Part shown: positions 10,374 through 23,976 of the stretch, in pieces | Position numbering within the stretch: position 1 is the first letter of the stretch | Layout: each line of letters opens with the position of its first letter | DNA from: Palleronia marisminoris | Lineage (GTDB): Bacteria; Pseudomonadota; Alphaproteobacteria; Rhodobacterales; Rhodobacteraceae | Direction: 5' to 3' | Assembly: GCF_900172315.1 (NCBI RefSeq) | Contig: NZ_FWFV01000012.1 | Coordinates: forward strand, 1 to 64,000 | Length of the DNA stretch: 64,000 bases | Position numbers and translations under genes: made by a program | The notes under the pieces: model-generated | What the model was told of the DNA's origin: nothing | Databases searched by the model: none | What the model saw: only the letters and a program-made list of their open reading frames with translations

Positions 10374-11231
10374 TCAGGACCGTCGCATCTGCAGGATAGC
10401 GAGGGCGGCCTCCTCCAGCGTGCCATCCGGCACTTCGACCGTGGGCAGAGCGCCCATCCGGTCCTGTACCGCCGCAATTTCTGCCCCGAGGTCTCCGCTC
10501 AACCCCAGAGCATCCAGTGTGGCCGCGCTTTCGCGCATCTCGGACGCGCGGCGGGCGCCGTGGCGCAAGGTGCGCTCGAAATTGTAGCTCACATTGTCGG
10601 GCCAGCCGAGGCCGGGATAAGTCTTTTCAAGCGAGGCCATGACTCGGTCGAAACAACCCGAGGCGGCCGCGGCCAGGGCGGCCTCGACCGTGATCGCCTC
10701 GAGCCCCTTGACGAAGAGCGACCGAACCATCTTGACCGCCGTCGCCTCCCCCGCCGTCTCGCCCACCACCTCGAACGAGAAGCCAGCCTGCGCCAACGCC
10801 TCGGCCAGGTCCGGCGCGTTGGGTCCAGCGATCAGGACCGGCGTGGCGTGGCCTTGGGGATGAACGGGGGCCATCACCGCCATGTCCACGTAATGGGCGG
10901 CGCGCACATCGACCAGTTTCGCCGTCTCGCGCTTGCGGTCGGGCGAGACCGAGTTGATGTCGAAGAACACCTGCCGCTGTTCCAGCGCGTCCGCGACTGA
11001 TTCCGCGGCGGCCAGGGATTGGTCGGCCGTGACCGCGCTGATGATCCAGTCCGCTCCCGAGACGGCCTCGGCCGGGCTGGTGGCGCGCCGGATGCCGCGG
11101 CTGGTCATCGCCTCGCACATCGCGTCGTCGTCGAGCCTATCATAGGCGGTGATGGCGTGATCGCCCTGGACCAGCAGGCTTTCGGCAAAGGCGCGGCCTG
11201 CCTCTCCGAACCCGATGAAGGTGATGTTCAT
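10374..11231 (-). CDS. NAD(P)-dependent beta-hydroxyacid dehydrogenase with DUF1932 C-terminal domain
   Basis: The 285-residue protein starts with the Rossmann motif ITFIGFGEAGRAFA of the 3-hydroxyisobutyrate/6-phosphogluconate dehydrogenase superfamily. It has a substrate-binding segment DMAVMAPVHPQGHATPVLIAG and the catalytic Lys region AVKMVRSLFVKGLEA. The C-terminal third is DUF1932-like (KTYPGLGWPDNVSYNFERTLRHGARRASEM). Family members oxidise hydroxyacids such as L-threonate-type substrates. It is downstream of the RpiR regulator and co-directional, so it is likely in that operon. The substrate is unknown. Confidence 0.82.
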   Translation of the reverse strand: MNITFIGFGEAGRAFAESLLVQGDHAITAYDRLDDDAMCEAMTSRGIRRATSPAEAVSGADWIISAVTADQSLAAAESVADALEQRQVFFDINSVSPDRKRETAKLVDVRAAHYVDMAVMAPVHPQGHATPVLIAGPNAPDLAEALAQAGFSFEVVGETAGEATAVKMVRSLFVKGLEAITVEAALAAAASGCFDRVMASLEKTYPGLGWPDNVSYNFERTLRHGARRASEMRESAATLDALGLSGDLGAEIAAVQDRMGALPTVEVPDGTLEEAALAILQMRRS

Positions 11232-11324: not shown

Positions 11325-12191
11325 TCAGATCCCGCGAAAGATCCGCGACTGGCCGATGGTCTTTTCCAATGCGGAGATCCGCTCGGCGCTCGAGACCGAG
11401 TGGCGGCTCTGGACCTCGGCGATCAGCGCCTCGACCAGAAAGTTGATCGCCAGGGTCGAGTCCCAGCTCGACGGGACCTCGACCGCCGCGCGGAAACAGA
11501 CCTCGGCGTGCTGCTCGATGGCCGAGCCCCAGATATCGGTGAACAGTAGGATGCTGACGCCCTGCCCCTCGGCCAAGCTCGCCAGCTTCTCGAGTTCCTT
11601 CTCGTAGCGGCGGATGTCGAAGATCACGAGGACCGACTGCGCCCCCATGTCCAGCAGCGACTGCGGCCACACGCTGGGCGAGCTGTCCATCAGGAAGACG
11701 CGCGGCCGGATGATCTGCATGTGGTTGAAGAAGTAATGCGCGTTCGACCGCGTGATCCGCCCGCCCATGAAATGAAGCTCGCGCGCCGGGTCCGACAGCA
11801 TCTCGGCAGCACGGTCGAAATCCCCCAGATCGAGCCGCTCGAGCGTCCGGTTGATGTTCCCCATTGCCCCCGCAACGAAGCGCGACACGATATGATCGGG
11901 CGGCGTGTCGTGATCCGCCGCTTCCAGCTTCGCAAGCGGCTCCTTTATACGGGCGGCGATATCGTCCCGGATCGCGTCCTGCAGGTCGCCGAACCCGTCG
12001 AAGCCGAGCTTGCGGGCCAGCCGGATCACCGTCGGCGTCGAAACCTGCGCGCTTTCGGCCAGGCGGGTGATCGACTGAAGCCCCGCGACCATCGAGTTGT
12101 CGACCAGAACGGCCGTGAGCTTGCGCTCGGACGCGGTCAGATCCGCCTCTTTCTCCTTCAGAAGATCGCGGACGAGGGGGCGCCTGCTCAC
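11325..12191 (-). CDS. MurR/RpiR family transcriptional regulator
   Basis: The 288-residue protein has an N-terminal HTH_6 domain (ASERKLTAVLVDNSMVAGLQSITRLAESAQVSTPTVIRLARKLGFDGFGDLQ). A C-terminal SIS sugar-isomerase-like sensor domain starts at about residue 125. The start is GTG at 12191 behind AAAGGAACC. It is divergent from the amidohydrolase/TRAP operon and most likely controls both directions. Sensors of this family usually bind phosphosugars or related acids, so here the ligand would be an intermediate of the adjoining pathway (inference). Confidence 0.88.
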   Translation of the reverse strand: MSRRPLVRDLLKEKEADLTASERKLTAVLVDNSMVAGLQSITRLAESAQVSTPTVIRLARKLGFDGFGDLQDAIRDDIAARIKEPLAKLEAADHDTPPDHIVSRFVAGAMGNINRTLERLDLGDFDRAAEMLSDPARELHFMGGRITRSNAHYFFNHMQIIRPRVFLMDSSPSVWPQSLLDMGAQSVLVIFDIRRYEKELEKLASLAEGQGVSILLFTDIWGSAIEQHAEVCFRAAVEVPSSWDSTLAINFLVEALIAEVQSRHSVSSAERISALEKTIGQSRIFRGI

Positions 12192-12216
12192 ACGAGGTTC
12201 CTTTCTCTACACTTCC

Positions 12217-12281
12217 GTATCCGCATGTAGCTAAAGATACAGAAAAATTCTTGACACATCAGTTGAGGCTGTAGTGATAAT
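12217..12281. promoter_or_regulatory. Divergent promoter region with candidate RpiR operator
   Basis: GTATC (12217-12221) and GATAC (12236-12240) form an interrupted inverted repeat. TTGACA at 12251-12256 and GATAAT at 12276-12281 resemble sigma-70 boxes for the plus-strand operon, but the 19-base spacer is long. The local AT content is higher than in the flanking genes. Confidence 0.4.
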
Positions 12282-12310
12282 TTCAGAGGGGCAGGCAAGG
12301 GGCAAGCGGG

Positions 12311-13084
12311 ATGAGCGGGGACGACTGGACAGCGGTCCACATCATCGGTGCCGACCGCCCTGCCCCGCTGGTCGTCGCCTGCGAGCATGGTTCGCGCCAT
12401 ATCCCGAAGGATTTGGGAAACCTTGGCCTCGATCCGGCGGCGCTGGCCAGCCACGCGGTCTGGGATATCGGCGCGGCCCACGTGGCACGGGCCCTGGGCG
12501 AAACGATGCAAGCACCCGTGGTCGAGGGTGGAATCTCGCGCCTCGTCTATGACTGCAACCGCCCGCCCTCGGCGCCCGACGCCATCCCCGCTAAAAGCGA
12601 GGTCTTCGACATTCCAGGCAACCGTGATCTCGGCGAGGCTGCGCGAGACGAACGCTTCCGGCGCGTCCACGAGCCTTACCATGCCGCCCTTGCCGAAACC
12701 TGTCGGCAGCAGGAAGCCAGGTCCGGCGGACCGGTCGTGCTGATCACGGTCCACAGCTTCACGCCGGTCTACCTGGGCCAGCAGCGCGAGGTCGAGATCG
12801 GGTTCCTGCACGACGCGACACCGACCCTCGCCCGAGCAGCCCTCGGTGCCGAACGGGCGCGGGGCATCTGGCGTGCGGCGCTCAACTCTCCCTATTCCGC
12901 AGCGGACGGCGTGACCCACACGCTCGCCCGTCATGCCGAGGCGGAAGGGCGCGACTCGGTGATGATCGAGATCCGGAACGACCTGATCGCCGATGACGAG
13001 GCCGGGGCGCGGATGGCTGCGCATCTTGCAGAGACGCTCCGCGCCGCGCTGGCCCCAGGCGCCAGACAAGGGGCGGCCGAATGA
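12311..13084 (+). CDS. N-formylglutamate amidohydrolase family protein
   Basis: The 257-residue protein belongs to the FGase/HutG2 family, zinc-dependent amidases that release glutamate from N-formylglutamate. Family patterns visible are VVACEHGSRHIP near the N-terminus, DIGAAHVA, RLVYDCNRPP, and VHSFTPVYLGQQREVEIGFLHD. No histidine-utilisation genes surround it. It opens a TRAP-transporter operon that also holds a glutamine-synthetase-like ligase, so it may hydrolyse a glutamyl or acyl amide other than N-formylglutamate (inference). AAGGGGC precedes the ATG. Its stop overlaps the next start (ATGA). Confidence 0.86.
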   Translation: MSGDDWTAVHIIGADRPAPLVVACEHGSRHIPKDLGNLGLDPAALASHAVWDIGAAHVARALGETMQAPVVEGGISRLVYDCNRPPSAPDAIPAKSEVFDIPGNRDLGEAARDERFRRVHEPYHAALAETCRQQEARSGGPVVLITVHSFTPVYLGQQREVEIGFLHDATPTLARAALGAERARGIWRAALNSPYSAADGVTHTLARHAEAEGRDSVMIEIRNDLIADDEAGARMAAHLAETLRAALAPGARQGAAE

Positions 13085-13623
13085 AGGTACTTCGTGCCTA
13101 TGTCGCCGTCGTCGATCGGATGAACTACGGCCTCGGGCGGCTCGTGATGTTCGGGATCTTCGCGCTGATGGGCGTCCTGATGTGGTCGACCATCTCGAAG
13201 ATGTTCTTCTCGCCGTCCCTCTGGACGCTCGAGATGGCGCAGTTCGTGATGATCGCATATTTCGTGCTGGGCGGGCCCTACGCGATGCAGATGGGGTCGC
13301 ATGTGCGGATGGACCTGATCTACGGCGCGCTCAACCCGCGGCGCAAGGCATGGACGGATGCGATCACCGTCTTCTTCCTGATCACCTACCTCGGCATCAT
13401 GCTCTGGGGCGGGATCGACAGCACACGGTACTCTTTCCAGTACGGGGGCGAGCGCAGTTCCTCTGCCTGGCGGCCGTATATGTGGCCGATCAAGGTCACG
13501 ATCTGTGTCGGCATCGCGCTCATGCTCCTGCAGGCCCTCAGCGAACTGGCGAAGGACATCCTGTTCCTGCGCACAGGCCGCCCTCTCCGCCATATCGACG
13601 AGGAGCAAGGCGATGCCCTATGA
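13081..13623 (+). CDS. TRAP transporter small permease (DctQ type)
   Basis: The 180-residue protein has four predicted membrane helices (about 20-40, 57-75, 97-117 and 138-158) and the DctQ-family pattern of a conserved central motif near GGPYAMQMGSHVRMDLIYG. It forms the small membrane subunit that pairs with the DctM protein encoded next. It overlaps both neighbours (ATGA upstream, 11 bases downstream), so the three are translationally coupled. The solute is discussed under the binding protein at 14997. Confidence 0.88.
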   Translation: MKVLRAYVAVVDRMNYGLGRLVMFGIFALMGVLMWSTISKMFFSPSLWTLEMAQFVMIAYFVLGGPYAMQMGSHVRMDLIYGALNPRRKAWTDAITVFFLITYLGIMLWGGIDSTRYSFQYGGERSSSAWRPYMWPIKVTICVGIALMLLQALSELAKDILFLRTGRPLRHIDEEQGDAL

Positions 13624-14941
13624 GCTGATCGCCGTCCTCATGTTCTCGACCATGATGCTGATGCTGTTCACCGGGCAGCGGGTCTTCGGCGCCATCGGTT
13701 TCGTCGCGGTCATTGCGGCGGTGCTGCTCTGGGGCGACCGGGGCGGCTACGACCTGGGGTTCTCGGCGATCATCAAGGTGATGCGGTGGTACCCCCTGCT
13801 GACGCTGCCGATGTTCATCTTCATGGGCTACGTCCTGTCGGAGTCGAAGATCGCCGACGACCTCTACCGCATGTTCCACGTCTGGACCGGCGGGATGCCC
13901 GGCGGGCTTGCCATGGGAACGATCGGGCTGATGGTCCTGATCTCTGCCATGAACGGGCTGTCGGTCGCGGGCATGGCGATCGGCGCGACCATCGCGCTGC
14001 CGGAGCTTCTGAAGCGGAATTACGACAAGCTCATGGTCACGGGGGTGGTCCAGGCGGGGTCTTCGCTGGGCATCCTCGTGCCGCCATCGGTGGTACTGGT
14101 GCTTTACGCGATGATCGCGCGTCAGCCGGTGGGGCAGCTGTGGTTGGCCGGAGCGGTGCCGGGGCTGATGATGGCGGCGATGTTCATCCTCTACATCTGG
14201 ATTCGCTGCCGGATCACGCCAGAGCTTGGCCCGACGCTGACCGAAGCCGAGCGGGCCGAGATCACCCCGGCCGAAAAGATGCGCCTCCTGCGTGCCGGCC
14301 TGCTGCCCATCGCGATCTTCGCGGTGATGATGGTGCCCTTCGTCAACGGCTGGACGAGCCTTGTGGAAAGTTCGGCAATCGGCGCCATCGCGGCCTTTGC
14401 GGCGGCGGTGCTCAAGGGGCGAATGACCCGCAAGGTGTTCGAGACCACGATCCGCCAGACGCTGGGCATCACCTGCATGTTCATGTGGATCATCACCGCC
14501 GCCCTCGCCTTCGGGGCCGTGTTCGACGGGCTGGGTGCCGTCCGCGCGATCGAGAACCTCTTCACCGAGCAGCTGGGCCTCGACCCTTGGGTGATCCTGA
14601 TCCTGATGCAGCTGAGCTTCCTGGTGATGGGCACGTTCCTCGACGACACGGCCATGCTGGTCATCGTGGCACCCCTTTACGTGCCGCTGGTCGGCGATTT
14701 GGGCTTCGACTTGGTGTGGTACGGGGTGCTCTACACGATCACCTGCCAAATCGCGTACATGACGCCGCCTTTCGGCTACAACCTGTTCCTGATGCGCGCG
14801 ATGGCCCCGCCCGAGATTGAACTTCGGGACATCTACCGTTCGATCGTGCCCTTCGTTTTCGTCATGATCGCGGCGCTCGCGCTGGTGATGATTTTCCCGC
14901 AGATCGCGCTGTGGCTGCCGAACAAAGTCTACGGCCTCTGA
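13613..14941 (+). CDS. TRAP transporter large permease (DctM type)
   Basis: The 442-residue protein has about 11-12 membrane helices with DctM-family patterns such as VFGAIGF near the start, LSVAGMAIGATIALPELLKRNYDK, GSSLGILVPPSVVLVLYAMIARQPVG and YMTPPFGYNLFLM. It carries the Na+-coupled translocation path. The ATG at 13613 follows GAGGAGCAAGG and lies inside the dctQ-type gene. An earlier frame start at 13505 would overlap dctQ more and lacks family sequence. Confidence 0.9.
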   Translation: MPYELIAVLMFSTMMLMLFTGQRVFGAIGFVAVIAAVLLWGDRGGYDLGFSAIIKVMRWYPLLTLPMFIFMGYVLSESKIADDLYRMFHVWTGGMPGGLAMGTIGLMVLISAMNGLSVAGMAIGATIALPELLKRNYDKLMVTGVVQAGSSLGILVPPSVVLVLYAMIARQPVGQLWLAGAVPGLMMAAMFILYIWIRCRITPELGPTLTEAERAEITPAEKMRLLRAGLLPIAIFAVMMVPFVNGWTSLVESSAIGAIAAFAAAVLKGRMTRKVFETTIRQTLGITCMFMWIITAALAFGAVFDGLGAVRAIENLFTEQLGLDPWVILILMQLSFLVMGTFLDDTAMLVIVAPLYVPLVGDLGFDLVWYGVLYTITCQIAYMTPPFGYNLFLMRAMAPPEIELRDIYRSIVPFVFVMIAALALVMIFPQIALWLPNKVYGL

Positions 14942-14996
14942 AGGCCCAATCGAGCCGGGCAAACCGGCCTTCCATCAACAGAGGAGATCACGAGAG

Positions 14997-16031
14997 ATGA
15001 CCACAAGACGCAAGTTCCTTCACGGCGCGGTGCTCGCCGGGCCTGCCGCACTGGCCGCCCCCTCGATCGCGCGCGCGCAGGAGCCGATCCGCTGGCGCTT
15101 CCAGACCTATGCCGGCGCCGCCCTGGGCGAGCAGGTGACCAAGCCTGTCATCGACTACATCAACGCCGCCTCGAATGGCGAAATGGAGATCGAGCTGTTC
15201 TACGCCGATCAGATCGTCCCCACCGGCGAGCTGTTCCAGGCGCTCCAGCGCGGGACGATCGACGGCGTCCATTCCGACGACGACTCGATGGCCTCGCCCA
15301 CCCCGCTGCGCCAGTTCGGAGGCTACTTTCCCTTCGCGACCAAGCACATCCTCGACGTGCCGGTCCTGTTCAACCAATACGGTTTGGCCGAGATCTGGGA
15401 CGAGGAATATTCCAAGGTCGGGGTCAAATGGCTGTCTGCCGCCGGTCAGGACCCGTGCAACTTCAACACCACGCGCGAGATCACCAGCGTCGCAGACCTG
15501 GACGGCCTCAAGCTCTACACCTTCCCGACGGCAGGCCGCTTCCTGTCCCAGTTCGGCGTCGTGCCGGTGAACATCCCCTACGAGGACGCCGAGGTCGCGG
15601 TGCAGACGGGCGAGCTCGACGGCATGGCATGGTCCGGCATCACCGAAGATTACACCGTCGGCTGGGCGGACGTGACCGACTACTTCCTGACCAACAACAT
15701 CTCGGGCGCGTGGATCGGGTCGTTCTTCGTCAACCAGGAACGCTGGAACGAGCTGCCCGATCACCTCAAGCAGCTCGTCATGGCCGGGATCGAGGCAGGC
15801 CACACCTATCGCAACCAGTGGTACTGGGGCGGCGAGGCCGCGCTGCGCGCCAAGGGCGAGAAGCTGGAGCTGCGGACCGTTCCGGCCGACGAATGGGCGC
15901 TGGTCGAGGAAGCCGCCAAGGAGTTCTGGGAGGAAGTCGCCCAGGAAGGCGAGGTTCACCAGAAGATCGTCTCGATCTTCCGTGACTACAACCAGGTCAT
16001 CAACCAGGCCGGACCGCCCTACACGTTCTAA
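14997..16031 (+). CDS. TRAP substrate-binding protein (DctP family), Tat-exported
   Basis: The 344-residue protein has a twin-arginine signal (TTRRKFLHGAVLAGPAALAAPSIARA, cut near residue 27). Mature DctP-type sequence follows, with GELFQALQRGTIDGVHSDD, the conserved Arg region around FNTTREITSVADLDGLKLYTFP, and VQTGELDGMAWSG. It captures the solute in the periplasm for the DctQM pair. Tat rather than Sec export is typical of the DctP subgroup that binds 2-oxoacids or mandelate-like ligands, but the ligand cannot be read here. It lies third in the operon, with AGAGGAG upstream. Confidence 0.88.
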   Translation: MTTRRKFLHGAVLAGPAALAAPSIARAQEPIRWRFQTYAGAALGEQVTKPVIDYINAASNGEMEIELFYADQIVPTGELFQALQRGTIDGVHSDDDSMASPTPLRQFGGYFPFATKHILDVPVLFNQYGLAEIWDEEYSKVGVKWLSAAGQDPCNFNTTREITSVADLDGLKLYTFPTAGRFLSQFGVVPVNIPYEDAEVAVQTGELDGMAWSGITEDYTVGWADVTDYFLTNNISGAWIGSFFVNQERWNELPDHLKQLVMAGIEAGHTYRNQWYWGGEAALRAKGEKLELRTVPADEWALVEEAAKEFWEEVAQEGEVHQKIVSIFRDYNQVINQAGPPYTF

Positions 16032-16050
16032 GCGGATCGAACCCGAACCG

Positions 16051-16073
16051 GGGCGGCCCTTGCGGGGCCGTTC
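16051..16073 (+). terminator. Intercistronic hairpin after the binding-protein gene
   Basis: GGGCGGCCC and GGGCCGTTC pair over nine positions (two G-U) around a TTGCG loop, 19 bases after the stop codon and before the ligase gene. No U-run follows, so it is more likely an mRNA stabiliser or attenuator than a full stop. Confidence 0.45.
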
Positions 16074-16096
16074 CGTCGTCTGACGAAGGAAAGCCC

Positions 16097-17461
16097 ATGC
16101 CCGGAAACCTGACATTCGACGCCCTGAAAGAGAAAGCCGCCAACGGCGAGATCGATACGGTCATGGCCGCTATGGTGGACATGCAGGGCCGGCTGATGGG
16201 CAAGCGGTTCCACGTCTCGAACTTCCTCGACCACGCGCATGAGGAAACCCACTGCTGCAACTACCTGCTGGCCACCGACCTCGTCATGTCGACGCCCGAA
16301 GGCTACGCCGCCACCAGCTGGCAAAGCGGCTACGGCGACTACACGCTGCGTCCCGACCTTTCGACCCTGCGCTCGGTCCCTTGGCTCGGAGGGACGGCGC
16401 TGGTCCTGGGCGACGTGCTGGACCACCACACGCACGCCCCCGTCCCGCACGCCCCGCGCGAGATGCTGAAGAGGCAGGTCGCGCGGCTGGCCGACCTGGG
16501 CTTCGACGCAGTCATGGCGACCGAGCTGGAGTTCTTCCTGTTCCAGGGCGATTACCGGACGCTCCAGAAGGACGGCTACCGCAACCTCGTCCCGTTCAAC
16601 GGCTTCAACGAAGACTACAACCTCTTCCAGACCACCAAGGAAGAGGCCGTGATGCGGCCGTTGCGCAACCACCTCGTTGCGGCCGGCATCCCGGTCGAAG
16701 GCACCAAGGGTGAGGCCGAGATGGGCCAGCAGGAGCTGAACATCCGCTACGCCCCCGCGCTCGACTGCGCCGACCATCACACCATCGCCAAGCACGCCAC
16801 CAAGGAAATCGCCTGGATGAACGGCTGCTCGGCGACGTTCCTGCCGAAGTGGGCGAGGGACAAGGTCGGCTCGTCCAGCCACGTGCACCTGTCGCTCTGG
16901 CGGGACGGCAACCCGGCCTTCCACGACGAGGACGTCGAGTTCGGGATGTCGGCCACGATGCGGCACTTCGTGGCGGGCCTTCTGGCCTACGCACGCGACT
17001 ACACGTTCTTCCTTGCGCCCTACGTCAACAGCTACAAGCGCTTCGCCCCCGGCACCTTCGCGCCGACAAAGGCCGTCTGGTCCGTGGACAACCGTACCGC
17101 GGCGTTCCGCCTCTGCGGCGACGGGACGAAAGGCATCCGCATCGAATGCCGCATCGGGGGCTCGGACATGAACCCTTACCTCGCGCAAGCCGCGCTGATC
17201 GCCGCCGGTATCCGCGGGATCGAGGAGGGGCTGAGCCTCGACCCGCCTCACAAGGGCGACGCCTACGCGGGCAACGAGGTCGAAGAAATCCCGCGCACCC
17301 TGCGCGATGCGATCGAAACCTTGAAGCACTCGACCATGCTGCGCGACGCCTTCGGTGGGGCGGTGGTCGATCACTACGTCCGCTGCGGCCAGTGGGAACA
17401 GGAAGAGTTCGACCGGGCCGTGACGGACTGGGAACTCAAACGAGGGTTCGAGGGGGCCTGA
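16097..17461 (+). CDS. Glutamine-synthetase-family ligase (gamma-glutamyl-amine synthetase-like)
   Basis: The 454-residue protein has both GS folds: a beta-grasp part (VDMQGRLMGKRFHVSNFL) and the catalytic barrel. The barrel shows ATELEFFLF, GEAEMGQQELNIRY, the ATP and metal His strip SSSHVHLSLW, NSYKRFAPGTFAPTKAVWSVDNRTAAFR and the Glu/Arg pair RIECRIGGSDMNPYL. It is closer in pattern to PuuA/GlnT/type III relatives that glutamylate amines than to the housekeeping GlnA, and GlnB-type control genes are absent. With ALDH and ADH genes directly behind, it likely activates an amine by gamma-glutamylation (inference). Confidence 0.85.
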   Translation: MPGNLTFDALKEKAANGEIDTVMAAMVDMQGRLMGKRFHVSNFLDHAHEETHCCNYLLATDLVMSTPEGYAATSWQSGYGDYTLRPDLSTLRSVPWLGGTALVLGDVLDHHTHAPVPHAPREMLKRQVARLADLGFDAVMATELEFFLFQGDYRTLQKDGYRNLVPFNGFNEDYNLFQTTKEEAVMRPLRNHLVAAGIPVEGTKGEAEMGQQELNIRYAPALDCADHHTIAKHATKEIAWMNGCSATFLPKWARDKVGSSSHVHLSLWRDGNPAFHDEDVEFGMSATMRHFVAGLLAYARDYTFFLAPYVNSYKRFAPGTFAPTKAVWSVDNRTAAFRLCGDGTKGIRIECRIGGSDMNPYLAQAALIAAGIRGIEEGLSLDPPHKGDAYAGNEVEEIPRTLRDAIETLKHSTMLRDAFGGAVVDHYVRCGQWEQEEFDRAVTDWELKRGFEGA

Positions 17462-17463
17462 AC

Positions 17464-18846
17464 ATGACGACGATCCTAAAATGCGTCTCGCCGATCGACG
17501 GATCGGTCTTTGCCGAGCGCGAGGCGCTCTCGCCCGACGGCGCCCGGAAAGCCGCCGCCCGCGCCCGCGCCGCGCAGGCCGAATGGGCAGCCCGGCCGAT
17601 CCGCGAGCGGGCCGATCTCGTGCGCGCGGCCGTCGCCGCCGTGGGCGAAATGAATGACGAGATCGTGCCCGAACTGGCCCGCATGATGGGCCGCCCCGTC
17701 CGCTCCGGCGGTGAATTCGGCGGCTTCCGCGACCGCGCCCACTACATGGCGGACATTGCCGAAGAGACCCTCGCCGACATCGAGATCGCGGACGACGCCG
17801 ACTTCCGCCGCCTGATCCGCCGCGTGCCCTGGGGCGTGGTCCTGGTCGTCGCACCCTGGAACTACCCCTGGATGACGGCCATCAACACCGTCGCCCCCGC
17901 CCTCATCGCGGGCAATGCGGTGCTGCTGAAACACGCCACCCAGACCCTTCTGGTGGGCGAGCGCATGGCCCGCGCCTTCCACTCCGCCGGAATCCCCAAG
18001 GAGGTGTTCCGGAACGTCTACCTGGACCACGACACGACCCGCACCCTGATCGCCGGGCGCCACGTGAACTACGTCAACTTCACCGGCTCGGTCGCGGGCG
18101 GCCAGTCGATGGAGCGTGCGGCGGCAGGCACGTTCATCCCCGTCTCGACCGAACTCGGCGGCAAGGACCCGGGCTACGTGATGGAGGACGCCGATCTCGA
18201 CGCCGCGGTCGATGTGCTGATGGACGGCGCGATGTTCAACGCCGGCCAGTGCTGCTGCGGGATCGAACGCATCTATGTCCACCACACCCTCTACGACACC
18301 TTCGTCGAGAAGGCCGTCGCCTGGGTAAAGGCGCTCAGGCTCGGCGATCCGCTGGACCCCGAGACGACGCTCGGCCCCATGGCTCACGCCCGGTTCGCCC
18401 GCACGGTGCGCGACCAGATCGACGACGCCGTCGCCGCCGGGGCCACGGCGCACATCCCCACCGATCCGCGCGACGATGGTCAGGCCTACCTGACCCCGCA
18501 GGTGCTGACCGGCGTCAATCACGGCATGGACGTCATGTGCGAGGAAAGCTTCGGCCCGGTGGTCGGCATCATGTCGGTCCGCGACGACGACGAGGCCGTG
18601 CACCTGATGAACGACAGCCGCTACGGCCTGACCGCCAGCCTCTGGACCGCCGATCCCGACCGCGCCGCGCGGCTGGGCGACCGGCTCGAGACCGGAACCG
18701 TGTTCATGAACCGCGCCGACTACCTCGACCCCGCGCTCTGCTGGACCGGGTGCAAGGATTCCGGTCGTGGCGCCGGGCTGTCCGTGCTTGGCCTGCAGGC
18801 GTTGACCCGGCCGAAATCCTACCACCTGAAGAAGGCCACCACATGA
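17464..18846 (+). CDS. NAD(P)-dependent aldehyde dehydrogenase
   Basis: The 460-residue ALDH has the general-base E230 in TELGGKDPG and the catalytic Cys in NAGQCCCG (C264 by alignment to the GQxC motif). The Asn active-site motif is PWNYPWMTAINTVAPAL and the cofactor loop is NFTGSVAGG. Start at 17464 is two bases past the ligase stop. The stop overlaps the next ATG (ATGA). In the ligase-ADH-ALDH set it would turn a gamma-glutamyl aminoaldehyde into the acid (inference). Three adjacent Cys residues at the active site are unusual but seen in some ALDHs. Confidence 0.9.
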   Translation: MTTILKCVSPIDGSVFAEREALSPDGARKAAARARAAQAEWAARPIRERADLVRAAVAAVGEMNDEIVPELARMMGRPVRSGGEFGGFRDRAHYMADIAEETLADIEIADDADFRRLIRRVPWGVVLVVAPWNYPWMTAINTVAPALIAGNAVLLKHATQTLLVGERMARAFHSAGIPKEVFRNVYLDHDTTRTLIAGRHVNYVNFTGSVAGGQSMERAAAGTFIPVSTELGGKDPGYVMEDADLDAAVDVLMDGAMFNAGQCCCGIERIYVHHTLYDTFVEKAVAWVKALRLGDPLDPETTLGPMAHARFARTVRDQIDDAVAAGATAHIPTDPRDDGQAYLTPQVLTGVNHGMDVMCEESFGPVVGIMSVRDDDEAVHLMNDSRYGLTASLWTADPDRAARLGDRLETGTVFMNRADYLDPALCWTGCKDSGRGAGLSVLGLQALTRPKSYHLKKATT

Positions 18847-19988
18847 GCCCGACCGGCAACTGGTCCTATCCCACCGCCATTCGCTTCGGCGCCGGACGTC
18901 TCGCAGAACTGCCCGAGGCCTGCCGCGCCGCCGGCATCGCCCGCCCGCTGCTCGTTACCGACAAGGGTCTGGCGGGGCTCGACATCACGACGCGCGCGCT
19001 CGACCTGCTCGAGGCGGCGGGCCTCGGGCGCGCGATCTTCGCCGAGGTGGACCCCAACCCGAACGAGAAGAACCTTGCCGCCGGCGTCGAGGCCTATCGC
19101 GCCGGCAGGCATGACGGGGTGGTCGCATTCGGCGGCGGATCTGGCCTCGATCTGGGCAAGATGGTCGCCTTCATGTCCGGCCAGTCCCGACCCCTGTGGG
19201 ATTTCGAGGATATCGGCGACTGGTGGACCCGCGCCGACGCAGATGCCATCGCGCCCGTCATCGCCGTGCCCACCACGGCCGGAACGGGATCCGAGGTCGG
19301 CCGCGCCAGCGTCATCACCAATTCCGAGACGCACGAGAAGAAGATCATCTTCCACCCCAAGGTCCTGCCGACGATCGTCATCGCCGACCCCGAACTGACT
19401 GTCGGGATGCCGAAGCCGATTACCGCCGGGACCGGCCTCGACGCCTTCGCCCACTGCGTCGAGGCGTTCTCGTCCCCGCACTACCACCCGATGAGCCAAG
19501 GGATCGCCCTTGAAGGCATGCGGCTGGTGATCGACAATCTGCCCCGCGCCTACGACACGCCCGACGATCTCGAAGCACGTGCCAACATGATGTCTGCCGC
19601 CGCCATGGGGGCCGTGGCATTCCAGAAGGGGCTCGGCGCCATCCACGCGATGAGCCATCCGGTCGGCGCCGTCTTCGGCACCCATCACGGCACGACGAAC
19701 GCGGTCTGCATGCCCGCCGTGCTCGAGTTCAACGCCCCGGCCATTCGCGACAGGTTCGACCGGGCGGCGCCCTATCTCGGGATCACCGGCGGGTTCGAGG
19801 GGTTCCGCGCTTTCGTGGCAGAGTTCAACGACCGGTTCGCCATCCCGCGAAAGCTCAGCGACCTCGGGGTGACGGACACGCGGATGGACGACCTGGTCGC
19901 CATGGCTCTGCGGGACCCCTCTTGCGGTGGCAACCCGGTGGAGCTGACCGAAGCGAACCTGCGCGACCTGTTCGAAGCGGCGCTCTGA
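18843..19988 (+). CDS. Iron-containing alcohol dehydrogenase
   Basis: The 381-residue protein is a group III alcohol dehydrogenase. It shows the NAD-binding GGGSGLDLGKMVA and VPTTAGTGSEVGRASVI, and metal-site segments with Asp/His: TGLDAFAHCVEAFSS and GAIHAMSHPVGAVFGTHHG. Family members oxidise short alcohols, 1,3-propanediol-type diols or hydroxyacids. Start at 18843 is coupled to the ALDH stop. With the upstream ligase, an alcohol group on an amino-alcohol is a plausible substrate (inference). Confidence 0.9.
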   Translation: MSPTGNWSYPTAIRFGAGRLAELPEACRAAGIARPLLVTDKGLAGLDITTRALDLLEAAGLGRAIFAEVDPNPNEKNLAAGVEAYRAGRHDGVVAFGGGSGLDLGKMVAFMSGQSRPLWDFEDIGDWWTRADADAIAPVIAVPTTAGTGSEVGRASVITNSETHEKKIIFHPKVLPTIVIADPELTVGMPKPITAGTGLDAFAHCVEAFSSPHYHPMSQGIALEGMRLVIDNLPRAYDTPDDLEARANMMSAAAMGAVAFQKGLGAIHAMSHPVGAVFGTHHGTTNAVCMPAVLEFNAPAIRDRFDRAAPYLGITGGFEGFRAFVAEFNDRFAIPRKLSDLGVTDTRMDDLVAMALRDPSCGGNPVELTEANLRDLFEAAL

Positions 19989-20077
19989 TCCGCGATCCGT
20001 ATCTGCTGGCCCTTATCCGACAATTATCGTAAGGATTTTGAACGACACCGATTCCGAACCCTTCGTGAGGCCAAAAC

Positions 20078-20725
20078 ATGGGCATTCCCGGTTTACTCGA
20101 CAGCCGCTCTGCCTATGGCCTCGTCAGCCGCATCCTGCACTGGAGCCTGGCGCTGATGCTGCTCTGGCAGCTCACGGGCATGGCGGTGAGGGCGCTGCTC
20201 GGGCGGCATCCCGTCTCGGCCTTCTTCGTCGGCATGCACCAGTCGCTCGGCACCGCGATCTTCGTGCTGGTGATCCTCCGGATCGTCTGGATGCTGGCCA
20301 TGCGGGGCCGCCGTCCCGACCACGGCAACGGCCTTCCGGCGGTCGCCGCAAAAGCGGGTCACGCGGCCCTTTACGCGCTGATGCTGCTCGTGCCGTCCGT
20401 GGCCCTGGTGCGGGCCTTCGGCACCACCCGCGGCTTTGCCCCTTTCGGGATCGAGCTTGCTCCGCCGCGGGAGGAGGACGTCGAGGCGCTGGTGTGGCTG
20501 GGCAATGCGGTTCACGGGACGCTCGGATGGGTCCTGGCGGCGCTGATCGGCGGCCATGTGGTCGCGGTTCTCATCCACGAGGCCTTGCTGCGCGACGGGA
20601 CGCTACGCCGCATGGCCGGGCGCACCCGCAACTCGACGGCAGGGCCGCCCAGCCCCGGCATCGACAACTTGCAGGGCAGGAAAGATGCGGCGGGCGGGAC
20701 GGATAGCTACGCCCGGACGAGCTAG
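20078..20725 (+). CDS. Cytochrome b561-family membrane protein
   Basis: The 215-residue protein has four membrane helices and the YceJ/CybB-type pattern. A first His lies in SRILHWSLALMLLWQL, one in GMHQSLGTAIFVLVILRIVWML, one in AGHAALYALML, and others in AVHGTLGWVLAALIGGHVVAVLIHEALL, positioned to ligate two b hemes. It would move electrons from the quinone pool or to superoxide. The last 35 residues are disordered. It stands alone after a 90-base gap and ends convergently, overlapping the ridA-like stop by 4 bases. No cytochrome partner gene is close. Confidence 0.85.
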   Translation: MGIPGLLDSRSAYGLVSRILHWSLALMLLWQLTGMAVRALLGRHPVSAFFVGMHQSLGTAIFVLVILRIVWMLAMRGRRPDHGNGLPAVAAKAGHAALYALMLLVPSVALVRAFGTTRGFAPFGIELAPPREEDVEALVWLGNAVHGTLGWVLAALIGGHVVAVLIHEALLRDGTLRRMAGRTRNSTAGPPSPGIDNLQGRKDAAGGTDSYARTS

Positions 20726-21123
20726 TCCGATGGGAACCGCTCAAGAACGGCCGTCGCTTCGATCTCGAGCTTGGCGGCATCCTCGACCAGGGCGGACACG
20801 ACGACCATCGTCATGGCCGGGAAGTGGTAGCCCATCACGTCGCGATAGGCCGCTCCGATATCCTTCTGGTGCGCCAGGTATTCGGTCTTGTCGGTGACGT
20901 ACCAGGTCAGCCGCACGATGTCGGTCACCTCGCCACCCGCCGCCCGCACGACCTCGGCGATGTTGCCGAGCGCCTGACGCATCTGGCCGATGAAATCGTG
21001 CGCCTCGAAGACTTGTTCGGCAGTCCAGCCGATCTGCCCGCCGACGAAGAGCACGCGCCCCTCGGCCACCATGCCATTCGCGTAGCCCTTCGCGGGCTTC
21101 CAGCCCTCGGGGTGAATCGTCAT
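20722..21123 (-). CDS. RidA family enamine/imine deaminase
   Basis: The 133-residue protein is a RidA/YjgF trimer-fold member with GRVLFVGGQIGWTAEQ, FIGQMRQALGNIAEVV, IVRLTWYVTD and a C-terminal AKLEIEATAVL. The Arg that binds the carboxylate in RidA-type enzymes is usually in an R-x(2)-(L/V) context, and the R of IVRLTWYV fits only loosely. Start at 21123 is chosen over 21168 because the longer start adds unconserved residues and overlaps the upstream gene. It is co-directional with the thioesterase. In the anthranilate-type island it may hydrolyse the enamine formed after ring reduction (inference). Confidence 0.85.
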   Translation of the reverse strand: MTIHPEGWKPAKGYANGMVAEGRVLFVGGQIGWTAEQVFEAHDFIGQMRQALGNIAEVVRAAGGEVTDIVRLTWYVTDKTEYLAHQKDIGAAYRDVMGYHFPAMTMVVVSALVEDAAKLEIEATAVLERFPSD

Positions 21124-21136
21124 CGTCGCCAAAAGG

Positions 21137-21550
21137 TCACTCCTCCTGATAGGTCGCGAGGGTCGCACGGCGCCCGTCCGGCCAGCGGATCGACTTCATC
21201 CTCGCCAGATCGACCAGAACCAGCGTTCCCTCGGCGCGAACACGCTGCTCGCCACCGCAACTGGCACGGATCTCGAGGTCGAGGCTCGCGCGCCCGATCC
21301 GGGGGAACGTCAGCGTCCAATCCAGGACGTCGCCCAATCGGGACGCGGCGGGGAAGCGGGTCTCGAGGCGCCCCATCGGAACGCCAAGTCCGTCATCCTC
21401 GTGCATCTGCCGGAACGACCAGCCCATGGCGTCGTCGAAGAAGGTCTCGACCACCTCGTTGATCATCTCGAAATAGCGCGGGTAGAAGACGATGGCGGCC
21501 GGGTCGCAATGCTGGAACATCACCTTGGTCCGGTGCCGGAACGCCGCCAT
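21137..21550 (-). CDS. Acyl-CoA thioesterase, 4-hydroxybenzoyl-CoA thioesterase type
   Basis: The 137-residue single hotdog domain has FQHCDPAAIVFYPRYFEMINEVVETFF, with D16 at the place of the nucleophilic Asp of Pseudomonas-type 4-hydroxybenzoyl-CoA thioesterase. It hydrolyses aromatic or alicyclic CoA esters. It is the first gene of a two-gene minus-strand unit with the RidA gene, divergent from the CoA-ester monooxygenase and sharing its palindromic control region. It probably rescues CoA from dead-end esters in that pathway (inference). Confidence 0.88.
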   Translation of the reverse strand: MAAFRHRTKVMFQHCDPAAIVFYPRYFEMINEVVETFFDDAMGWSFRQMHEDDGLGVPMGRLETRFPAASRLGDVLDWTLTFPRIGRASLDLEIRASCGGEQRVRAEGTLVLVDLARMKSIRWPDGRRATLATYQEE

Positions 21551-21608
21551 GTCTCAGCCCCTGCCTGTCGCGATCTCGTCCCGTCACTATCGCAAGCGGC
21601 TCGAAAAC

Positions 21609-21634
21609 TTCAAGCCTAAAGGTTTAGGCTTGAA
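21609..21634. promoter_or_regulatory. Perfect 26-bp palindrome, likely MarR-type operator
   Basis: TTCAAGCCTAAA (21609-21620) and TTTAGGCTTGAA (21623-21634) are exact reverse complements around GG. It lies between the divergent thioesterase and monooxygenase starts. The outer seven bases of each arm recur as an inverted repeat in front of the MarR gene at 29465-29491. Confidence 0.75.
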
Positions 21635-21687
21635 ATGATGCGGAGGCGGTGAGACATTCGAACCGGATCACCGGAACGGAGCGTTCG

Positions 21688-23976
21688 ATGAAGACCGTCT
21701 GTCTTGGCGGCGGCCCCGCCGGCCTCTATTTCGCCATCAGCCTCAAGCTCCGCCAGCCGGATTGGCCGGTCACGGTGATCGAGCGCAATCGCGCGGACGA
21801 TACCTTCGGCTGGGGCGTCGTGCTGTCGGCCGAGACGCTGGACAATCTTCAGGCAAACGACCCCGCCAGTGCGCGCCTGATCCGCGACCACTTCGCATAT
21901 TGGGACGACATCAAGGTCATCAAGGATGGCACCGAGATCACCTCCACCGGCCACGGCTTCTGCGGGCTGGGACGCAAGGCGATGCTGATGCTTCTCCAGG
22001 ACCGGGCGCGCGAGTTGGGCGTCGATCTGCGGTTCGAGACCGAGGTGGACGACATCGACGCTCTGCGCCGGGACTACGACCTGGTGGTCGGGGCGGATGG
22101 CATCAATTCGAAGACCCGCACGCGCTACGCTGACGCTTTCGAGCCCGAGATCGACCGGCGTGCCTGCAAGTTCGTCTGGCTGGGCACACACGCGAAGTTC
22201 GACGACGCCTTCACCTTCATCTTCAAGAAGACCGAACACGGCTGGATCTGGGCTCATGCCTACCAGTTCGACTCCGACACCGCGACGTTCATCGTTGAAT
22301 GCGCCGAAGAGACGTGGCGGTCCTTCGGGTTCGACAGGATGGACCAGGACCAGATGATAGAGATCTGCGAACGGGTATTCGCCGAGCATCTGGGCGGGCA
22401 CGACCTGATGTCGAACGCCAAGCACCGGCGCGGATCGGCCTGGATCAATTTCGACCGGGTCCTGTGCAAGACATGGCACCACGAGAACGTCGTGCTGCTG
22501 GGGGATGCCTCGGCCACGGCGCATTTCTCGATCGGTTCGGGCACCAAGCTGGCGCTGGAATCTGCGATTGCCCTCGCCGACCTGGTGTCGAAGGAGCCGA
22601 CGCTGGACACCGCCTTCTCCAAGTACCAGGACGAGCGCCGTCTGGACGTTTTGCGCCTGCAATCGGCGGCCCGAAACTCGACCGAGTGGTTCGAGGAGGT
22701 CGAGAGGTATCTCAACCTCGACCCGGTGCAGTTCAACTATTCCCTGCTGACGCGGTCGCAGCGGATCAGCCACGAAAACCTGCGCCTGCGCGACCCGAAG
22801 TGGCTGCGCGAAGCGGAAGAGTGGTTCCAGAACCAGGCCGGCGCCAACGGCGTGCATCGCGCCCCCATGTTCGCGCCGTTCCAATTGCGCGACATGCGGC
22901 TGAAGAACCGGATCGTGGTGTCGCCCATGGCACAGTACAAGGCGGTGGACGGCTGCCCGACCGACTGGCACTTCGTGCACTACGCCGAACGCGCAAAGGG
23001 CGGGGCGGGACTGGTCTATACCGAAATGACATGCGTCAGCGCCGAAGGCCGGATCACGCCGGGCTGCCCCGGTCTCTACGCGCCGGAACACGAGGCCGCG
23101 TGGAAGCGCCTCGTCGATTTCGTCCATGCCGAGACCGACGCGAAGATCTGCATGCAGATCGGCCATTCGGGCCGCAAGGGATCGACGCAACTCGGATGGG
23201 AGGCGATGGACGCGCCCTTGCCACAGGGCAATTGGCCCCTTCTATCGGCCTCGGACGTGCCTTGGTCCGACGGCAACGCGATCCCCAAGGCAATGGATCG
23301 CGACGACATGGTCCGCGTGCGCGACGAGTTCGTCGCGGCCACGGAAATGGCCGGGCGCGCCGGATTCGACATGGTCGAACTCCACGCTGCCCACGGCTAC
23401 CTGATCTCGTCCTTCATCTCGCCGCTGTCGAACCAGCGCAGGGACGAATACGGCGGATCGCTGGAGAACCGGATGCGATATCCGCTCGAGGTCTTTCAGG
23501 CGATGCGCGCCGTCTGGCCCGAGGGCAAGCCGATGTCTGTCCGGATCTCCGCCACCGATTGGGCGGGCGAGCACGGCGTCGACCGCGACGAGGCCGTCGC
23601 CATCGCGCGGATGTTCCACGAGGCGGGCGTCGATATCGTCGATGTCTCGGCCGGGCAGACCAGCGCCGAGGCCAAGCCCGTCTATGGCCGCATGTTCCAG
23701 ACGCCATTCTCGGACCGCATCCGCAATGAGAGCGGGATTCCCACCATGGCGGTCGGCAATATCTACGAGCCCGACCACGTGAACTCGATCCTGATCGCCG
23801 GGCGCGCAGACCTGGTCTGTCTTGCCCGCCCGCACCTCGCCGACCCCTACTGGACGCTTCACGCCGCCGCGGCCCTCGGCGACGAAGACACCGCGTGGCC
23901 CCTGCCCTACCTGCCCGGGCGCGACCAGATGCGGCGCCTTGCCGAGCGGGGCGAGGGTTTGGGGATCCGAGTATGA
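21688..23976 (+). CDS. Bifunctional aryl-CoA monooxygenase/reductase (2-aminobenzoyl-CoA or salicylyl-CoA type)
   Basis: The 762-residue protein is a fusion. Residues 1 to about 385 form a flavin monooxygenase ([52 protein letters not shown]). Residues 394-762 form an Old Yellow Enzyme domain ([61 protein letters not shown]). This architecture is that of 2-aminobenzoyl-CoA monooxygenase/reductase, which hydroxylates then reduces the ring. Databases also label it salicylyl-CoA 5-hydroxylase. The ATG at 21688 starts at the FAD motif, and an upstream ATG at 21649 overlaps the operator region. The adjoining aryl-CoA ligase supports the anthranilate reading. Confidence 0.9.

Follow-up and report, generated by a model that had tools for sequence, protein, structure and literature searches.

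Which substrate would a bacterial operon serve when it joins a TRAP importer to a glutamine-synthetase-like (GS-like) ligase, two dehydrogenases and a hydrolase of the FGase family? The question is raised by a locus of Palleronia marisminoris on contig NZ_FWFV01000012.1 (NCBI RefSeq assembly GCF_900172315.1; 3.75 Mb, 99.79% complete), of which the whole stretch that was analysed, positions 1 to 64,000 of the forward strand, is referred to here as the window. An earlier interpretation of the bare DNA, hereafter the sequence-only reading, had described such a gene set with a divergent RpiR regulator, and profile scans, from which the gene families are assigned, recover all eight genes at that very place. 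Seven genes lie on the plus strand at 12311-19988, in the order FGase-family hydrolase, DctQ, DctM, DctP, GS-like ligase, aldehyde dehydrogenase (ALDH) and iron-type alcohol dehydrogenase (Fe-ADH), with overlaps of a few bases between three adjacent pairs; the RpiR gene is divergent.

We conclude that the window almost certainly contains an Eto-type ethanolamine utilisation operon that works by a gamma-glutamyl route. In the proposed pathway, the TRAP importer, EtoVWX, would take up ethanolamine, which the GS-like ligase would couple to the gamma-carboxyl group of glutamate, using ATP. The Fe-ADH and the ALDH would then convert the alcohol, through the aldehyde, to gamma-glutamylglycine, from which the FGase-family hydrolase would release glutamate and glycine by cleaving the gamma-amide. 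The RpiR protein would act as the regulator of the operon.

Published counterparts and conservation of the operon

The sequence-only reading had put forward an undescribed gamma-glutamyl route for an amino-alcohol, with its own TRAP importer. The chemistry and the dedicated importer match the published ethanolamine pathway, but "undescribed" was wrong: the same gene set is reported for Phaeobacter sp. MED193 (MED193_10021 to 10056; Westermann et al. 2023, PMC10132767), and the window holds a further copy of an already described system in another host. The MED193 genes are listed there as RpiR, gamma-glutamylglycine amidohydrolase, EtoV, EtoW, EtoX and ethanolamine gamma-glutamylase, followed by two dehydrogenases, named gamma-glutamylacetylaldehydeamide dehydrogenase and gamma-glutamylethanolamide dehydrogenase; the eight families listed in the legend (PMC10132767) are those of the window, and their order by locus tag is identical. 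In that paper, EtoVWX is the ethanolamine TRAP importer, purified Phaeobacter EtoX has a Kd of 7.9 uM for ethanolamine, five proteins of the operon reach higher levels on phosphorylethanolamine, and the genes are called closely related to ones "demonstrated" in Chromohalobacter salexigens and Agrobacterium tumefaciens C58, with citation of Vetting et al. 2015 (PMC10132767). The name N-formylglutamate has 0 occurrences in its text (PMC10132767), and a literature search joining ethanolamine, glutamine synthetase and N-formylglutamate amidohydrolase gave no match.

Two further sources agree with the idea, also part of the sequence-only reading, that an FGase-type enzyme serves as the amide hydrolase. 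For the C. salexigens pathway, the table of a 2022 review gives PF00120, PF00465, PF00171 and PF05013, the last named as gamma-glutamylglycine amidohydrolase (PMC9397018). The GlnA4 route of Streptomyces coelicolor consists of gamma-glutamylation of ethanolamine, two proposed oxidations and a proposed final hydrolysis (PMC6529630, PMC9397018), and a member of the formylglutamate-amidohydrolase family is proposed as the hydrolase of the last step (PMC6529630). Likened by description, the Streptomyces cluster differs in having the regulator EpuRI and a putative permease where the window has a TRAP importer (PMC6529630).

Conservation of the operon was assessed at 80 named loci, reached by way of the ligase and ranking highest among at least 586 relatives. 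Since these loci are best matches and, judging by their titles, mostly from Rhodobacterales, they are not independent, and close relatives weigh heavily. At 66 of the 80, the full set of eight is present with order and orientation unchanged, and therefore the grouping is not due to chance; the sequence-only reading had named separation of the genes in relatives as something that would refute its proposal, and this does not hold at the 66 loci. Of the 14 exceptions, four are contig fragments of only 3.2-10.3 kb (L030, L031, L089 and L094). From the alignments, one row each of the hydrolase, ALDH and Fe-ADH, no longer than 85% of the query, was dropped, and stop signs within the stretch, reflecting either a true break or an overrun past the gene end, were deleted from 8 rows (5 DctQ, 3 ALDH); the clade, tree and hydrolase results are free of these 8 rows. 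The ALDH carries the motifs ELGGKD at 230 and GQCCCG at 261, with every residue conserved in 97% or more of 73 rows.

Table 1. Operon genes in the window, with their profile-scan scores
Feature	Coordinates	Strand	Profile evidence
RpiR-family regulator, divergent	11325..12191	-	HTH_6 53.0 bits, SIS 53.6 bits
FGase-family hydrolase, predicted gamma-glutamylglycine amidohydrolase	12311..13084	+	PF05013 148.2 bits
TRAP small permease DctQ (EtoV type)	13081..13623	+	PF04290 83.1 bits
TRAP large permease DctM (EtoW type)	13613..14941	+	PF06808 226.8 bits
TRAP solute-binding protein DctP (EtoX type)	14997..16031	+	PF03480 92.5 bits
GS-like ligase, predicted ethanolamine gamma-glutamylase	16097..17461	+	PF00120 (Gln-synt_C) 327.1 bits
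Aldehyde dehydrogenase, predicted gamma-glutamylglycine maker	17464..18846	+	PF00171 (Aldedh) 399 bits
Iron-type alcohol dehydrogenase, predicted gamma-glutamylethanolamide dehydrogenase	18843..19988	+	Fe-ADH PF00465 162.7 bits, ADH_Fe_C PF25137 142 bits

The solute-binding protein and its clades

The ligand assigned to the importer follows from the likeness of its binding protein to Csal_0678 of C. salexigens DSM 3043, with which it is 62% identical in a comparison that retained matches covering 60% or more of the query. The Csal_0678 structures 4uab and 4xf5 are its top matches by both sequence and fold, the sequence match having E 8.7e-142 compared with 1.3e-17 for the next solved structure. 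The predicted structure of the window protein is middling (mean pLDDT 74.2, residues 218-227 below 50), and its use was therefore restricted to the top fold matches. We take 4xf5 to hold 2-amino-1-propanol. Both proteins lack the usual carboxylate-binding Arg: Tyr174 of the window protein aligns with the Arg of 4yzz/4yic, 2hzk and 4pet, and Csal_0678 has Phe at this position. The Arg is reported in 96.8% of TRAP binding proteins, and Csal_0678, which is without it, is reported to bind ethanolamine (PMC4646407). Of 40 relatives, the genome of the window among them, 16 have a match to the binding protein, as do 161 of 295 genomes of the family, the protein being counted here by itself; a search of plasmid sequences with it returned 17 records.

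The alternative that fares best is that the operon applies the same chemistry to another small amino-alcohol, such as 2-amino-1-propanol, serinol or 3-amino-1-propanol, with the clade of the binding protein marking the change of substrate. A set of 75 proteins (73 binding proteins from the loci, that of the window and Csal_0678) falls into three groups: A, with 34 loci and Csal_0678; B, with 31 loci and the window; and C, with 8 loci. Thus, the binding protein of the window belongs to another clade than Csal_0678, and this is what speaks for a different substrate: identity between A and B is at most 68.9% for every pair, and 30 positions differ nearly consistently between them, including the substitutions W151Q, H155N, F174Y and W195Y. 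Across all 75 proteins, 144 positions are invariant, a count over the whole alignment, ligand contacts and other positions together.

The enzymes, however, do not follow the binding protein, because operons of clades A and B can share ligases that are 92% identical, with binding proteins only 63-66% identical, and because at least 11 clade changes fall on the ligase tree and 2 on that of the binding protein, the former having 74 rows and being built by a quick search under a simple model with no shuffled control. Of the 80 loci, 65 contribute all eight proteins; among the 2080 operon pairs that these give, 79 have ligases that are 84% or more identical and binding proteins that are less than 70% identical. 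Moreover, no genome with both A and B was seen among the matches listed for the 161 matching family genomes, with up to 7 candidates each; two binding-protein matches occur in 2 of the 161, namely G212 (two equal) and G167 (weak, best E 2.5e-79).

The pattern fits repeated replacement of the binding-protein gene inside a fixed operon, and from sequence comparison, operons that are otherwise similar appear to have exchanged clades repeatedly. Such swapping would more likely have kept the same ligand than brought a new one. We consider it improbable that, on a fixed enzyme chassis, the clade present in the window, with Tyr where Arg is usual and its other consistent changes, tunes the importer to another amino-alcohol or concentration range than the Csal_0678 clade, and we regard an operon dedicated to an amino-alcohol other than ethanolamine as more doubtful still.

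The hydrolase and the ligase

Ethanolamine utilisation would give the hydrolase a different task from the one for which its family was named. Membership in PF05013 would be in line with a true N-formylglutamate deformylase (HutG), in which case the operon would serve histidine or formyl-amino-acid salvage. The protein, however, reaches 28.9 bits on TIGR02017, the equivalog model of HutG with a cut-off of 278.75, and is 22% identical to the solved N-formylglutamate amidohydrolase of Ralstonia, as against 46-48% to Atu2144 of Agrobacterium. The latter (2odf) is also the best fold match of its predicted structure (mean pLDDT 95.1), with TMq 0.88-0.92 over five chains. In addition, the genome has no HutH match (5 of 14 control genomes match; other hut genes lay outside this search). 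On the TIGR02017 score, the missing HutH match and the closer fit to Atu2144, the histidine route was rejected, and a HutG function has a negligible chance of being right. The protective gamma-glutamyl logic of the putative ethanolamine pathway is shared with the Puu putrescine and Ipu pathways; Puu employs a PuuD-type hydrolase where the window has an FGase-type one. Elsewhere in the genome, a second FGase-family gene lies on contig C9 (L001:1336-2313) and scores 106.9 bits on the same HutG model, likewise below its cut-off.

The ligase matches five NCBIfam models, including those of glutamine synthetases and of gamma-glutamylputrescine synthetase, and falls below the cut-off of every one: it scores 235.5 bits on the GlnA model (cut-off 429.15), 240.9 bits on type III (469.6) and 213.3 bits on gamma-glutamylputrescine synthetase NF045547 (650). 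Its best matches among PDB structures are 5dm3 (692.7 bits) and 11zs (555.5 bits), the next reaching 175.9 bits; 5dm3 is presumably the C. salexigens ligase encoded beside Csal_0678. A plain glutamine synthetase was rejected on these scores and on the presence in the genome of three more GS-family matches, 31-33% identical to the ligase. Accordingly, and given the linkage of the ligase to dehydrogenases and a hydrolase at the 66 conserved loci and the published MED193 operon (PMC10132767), it is scarcely credible, despite the PF00120 catalytic domain, that the gene makes glutamine within a nitrogen-stress cassette to which the TRAP importer is unrelated.

A B12-dependent Eut route for ethanolamine in the same genome was likewise considered and rejected, there being no match to EutB (PF06751) in the genome; among the 14 control genomes, that of E. 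coli matches.

Points against the assignment, neighbouring genes and wider meaning

Besides the clade difference from Csal_0678, several points weigh against an Eto-type ethanolamine operon. The activity of each enzyme, the ligand of the importer and the signal of the regulator are, for this genome, what we infer. The likeness to MED193 was drawn at the level of gene family and locus-tag order. The published pathway is itself worded unevenly, as "predicted" in the legend of PMC10132767 and yet "demonstrated" in its text, and the C. salexigens pathway is an in silico prediction according to PMC6529630. Of 14 genomes in the genus, own included, no more than 6 carry the binding protein (E <= 1e-60). 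Finally, 10 of the 80 loci, other than the short contig pieces, are without part of the operon.

Within the stretches examined, L046 is without the ALDH, L056 and L059 are without the Fe-ADH, L057 is without RpiR, hydrolase and ALDH, and L092 is without RpiR, hydrolase and TRAP genes. L081 is without hydrolase and TRAP genes, and its sole RpiR match is 26% identical and about 9 kb away. Of the eight genes, L049, L051, L065 and L097 have only the ligase (68-71% identical), followed by the Fe-ADH; these loci possibly represent a reduced or different glutamylation route. A scan of ten proteins flanking seven of the partial-operon ligases found an Amidohydro_1 gene 3' of the ligase at L049 and two ABC-transporter ATPases 5' of it at L081. 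At L057, a gene for a Rep3-type replication initiator (L057:5560-6735) lies directly 5' of the TRAP genes, and this partial operon may be plasmid-borne.

Around the operon, a gene for an NAD-binding/DUF1932 dehydrogenase adjoins the RpiR gene (10374-11231, minus strand), and a cytochrome b561 gene lies at 20078-20725. As neither has a match covering 60% at any of the 80 loci, both were excluded from the operon, and the DUF1932 gene probably stands outside it. Further downstream, 21649-23976 on the plus strand encodes a bifunctional salicylyl-CoA 5-hydroxylase/oxidoreductase (1293.2 bits, cut-off 1078), near which lie genes for a Rid-family protein (20722-21168) and a YbgC/FadM-like thioesterase (21137-21550), both below their cut-offs; together, the genes at 20722-23976 perhaps form an aromatic-acid degradation cluster. 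A scan of 12100-20100 yielded 0 promoter-like sites (0.9 in shuffles) and 3 terminator-like sites (3.7 in shuffles). Repeats were also sought 5' of the hydrolase gene; the outcome was two families of direct repeats with two copies each, and an imperfect palindrome, which sits within the RpiR coding stretch.

Ethanolamine, released from phospholipid headgroups, is a source of nitrogen and carbon in the sea. In ocean data, roughly 5 to 10% of bacteria are reported to carry etoX, with approximately 94% of matches from Alphaproteobacteria (PMC10132767). For operons such as that of P. marisminoris, it is of some interest that the gene for the binding protein has apparently been exchanged between otherwise similar operons.

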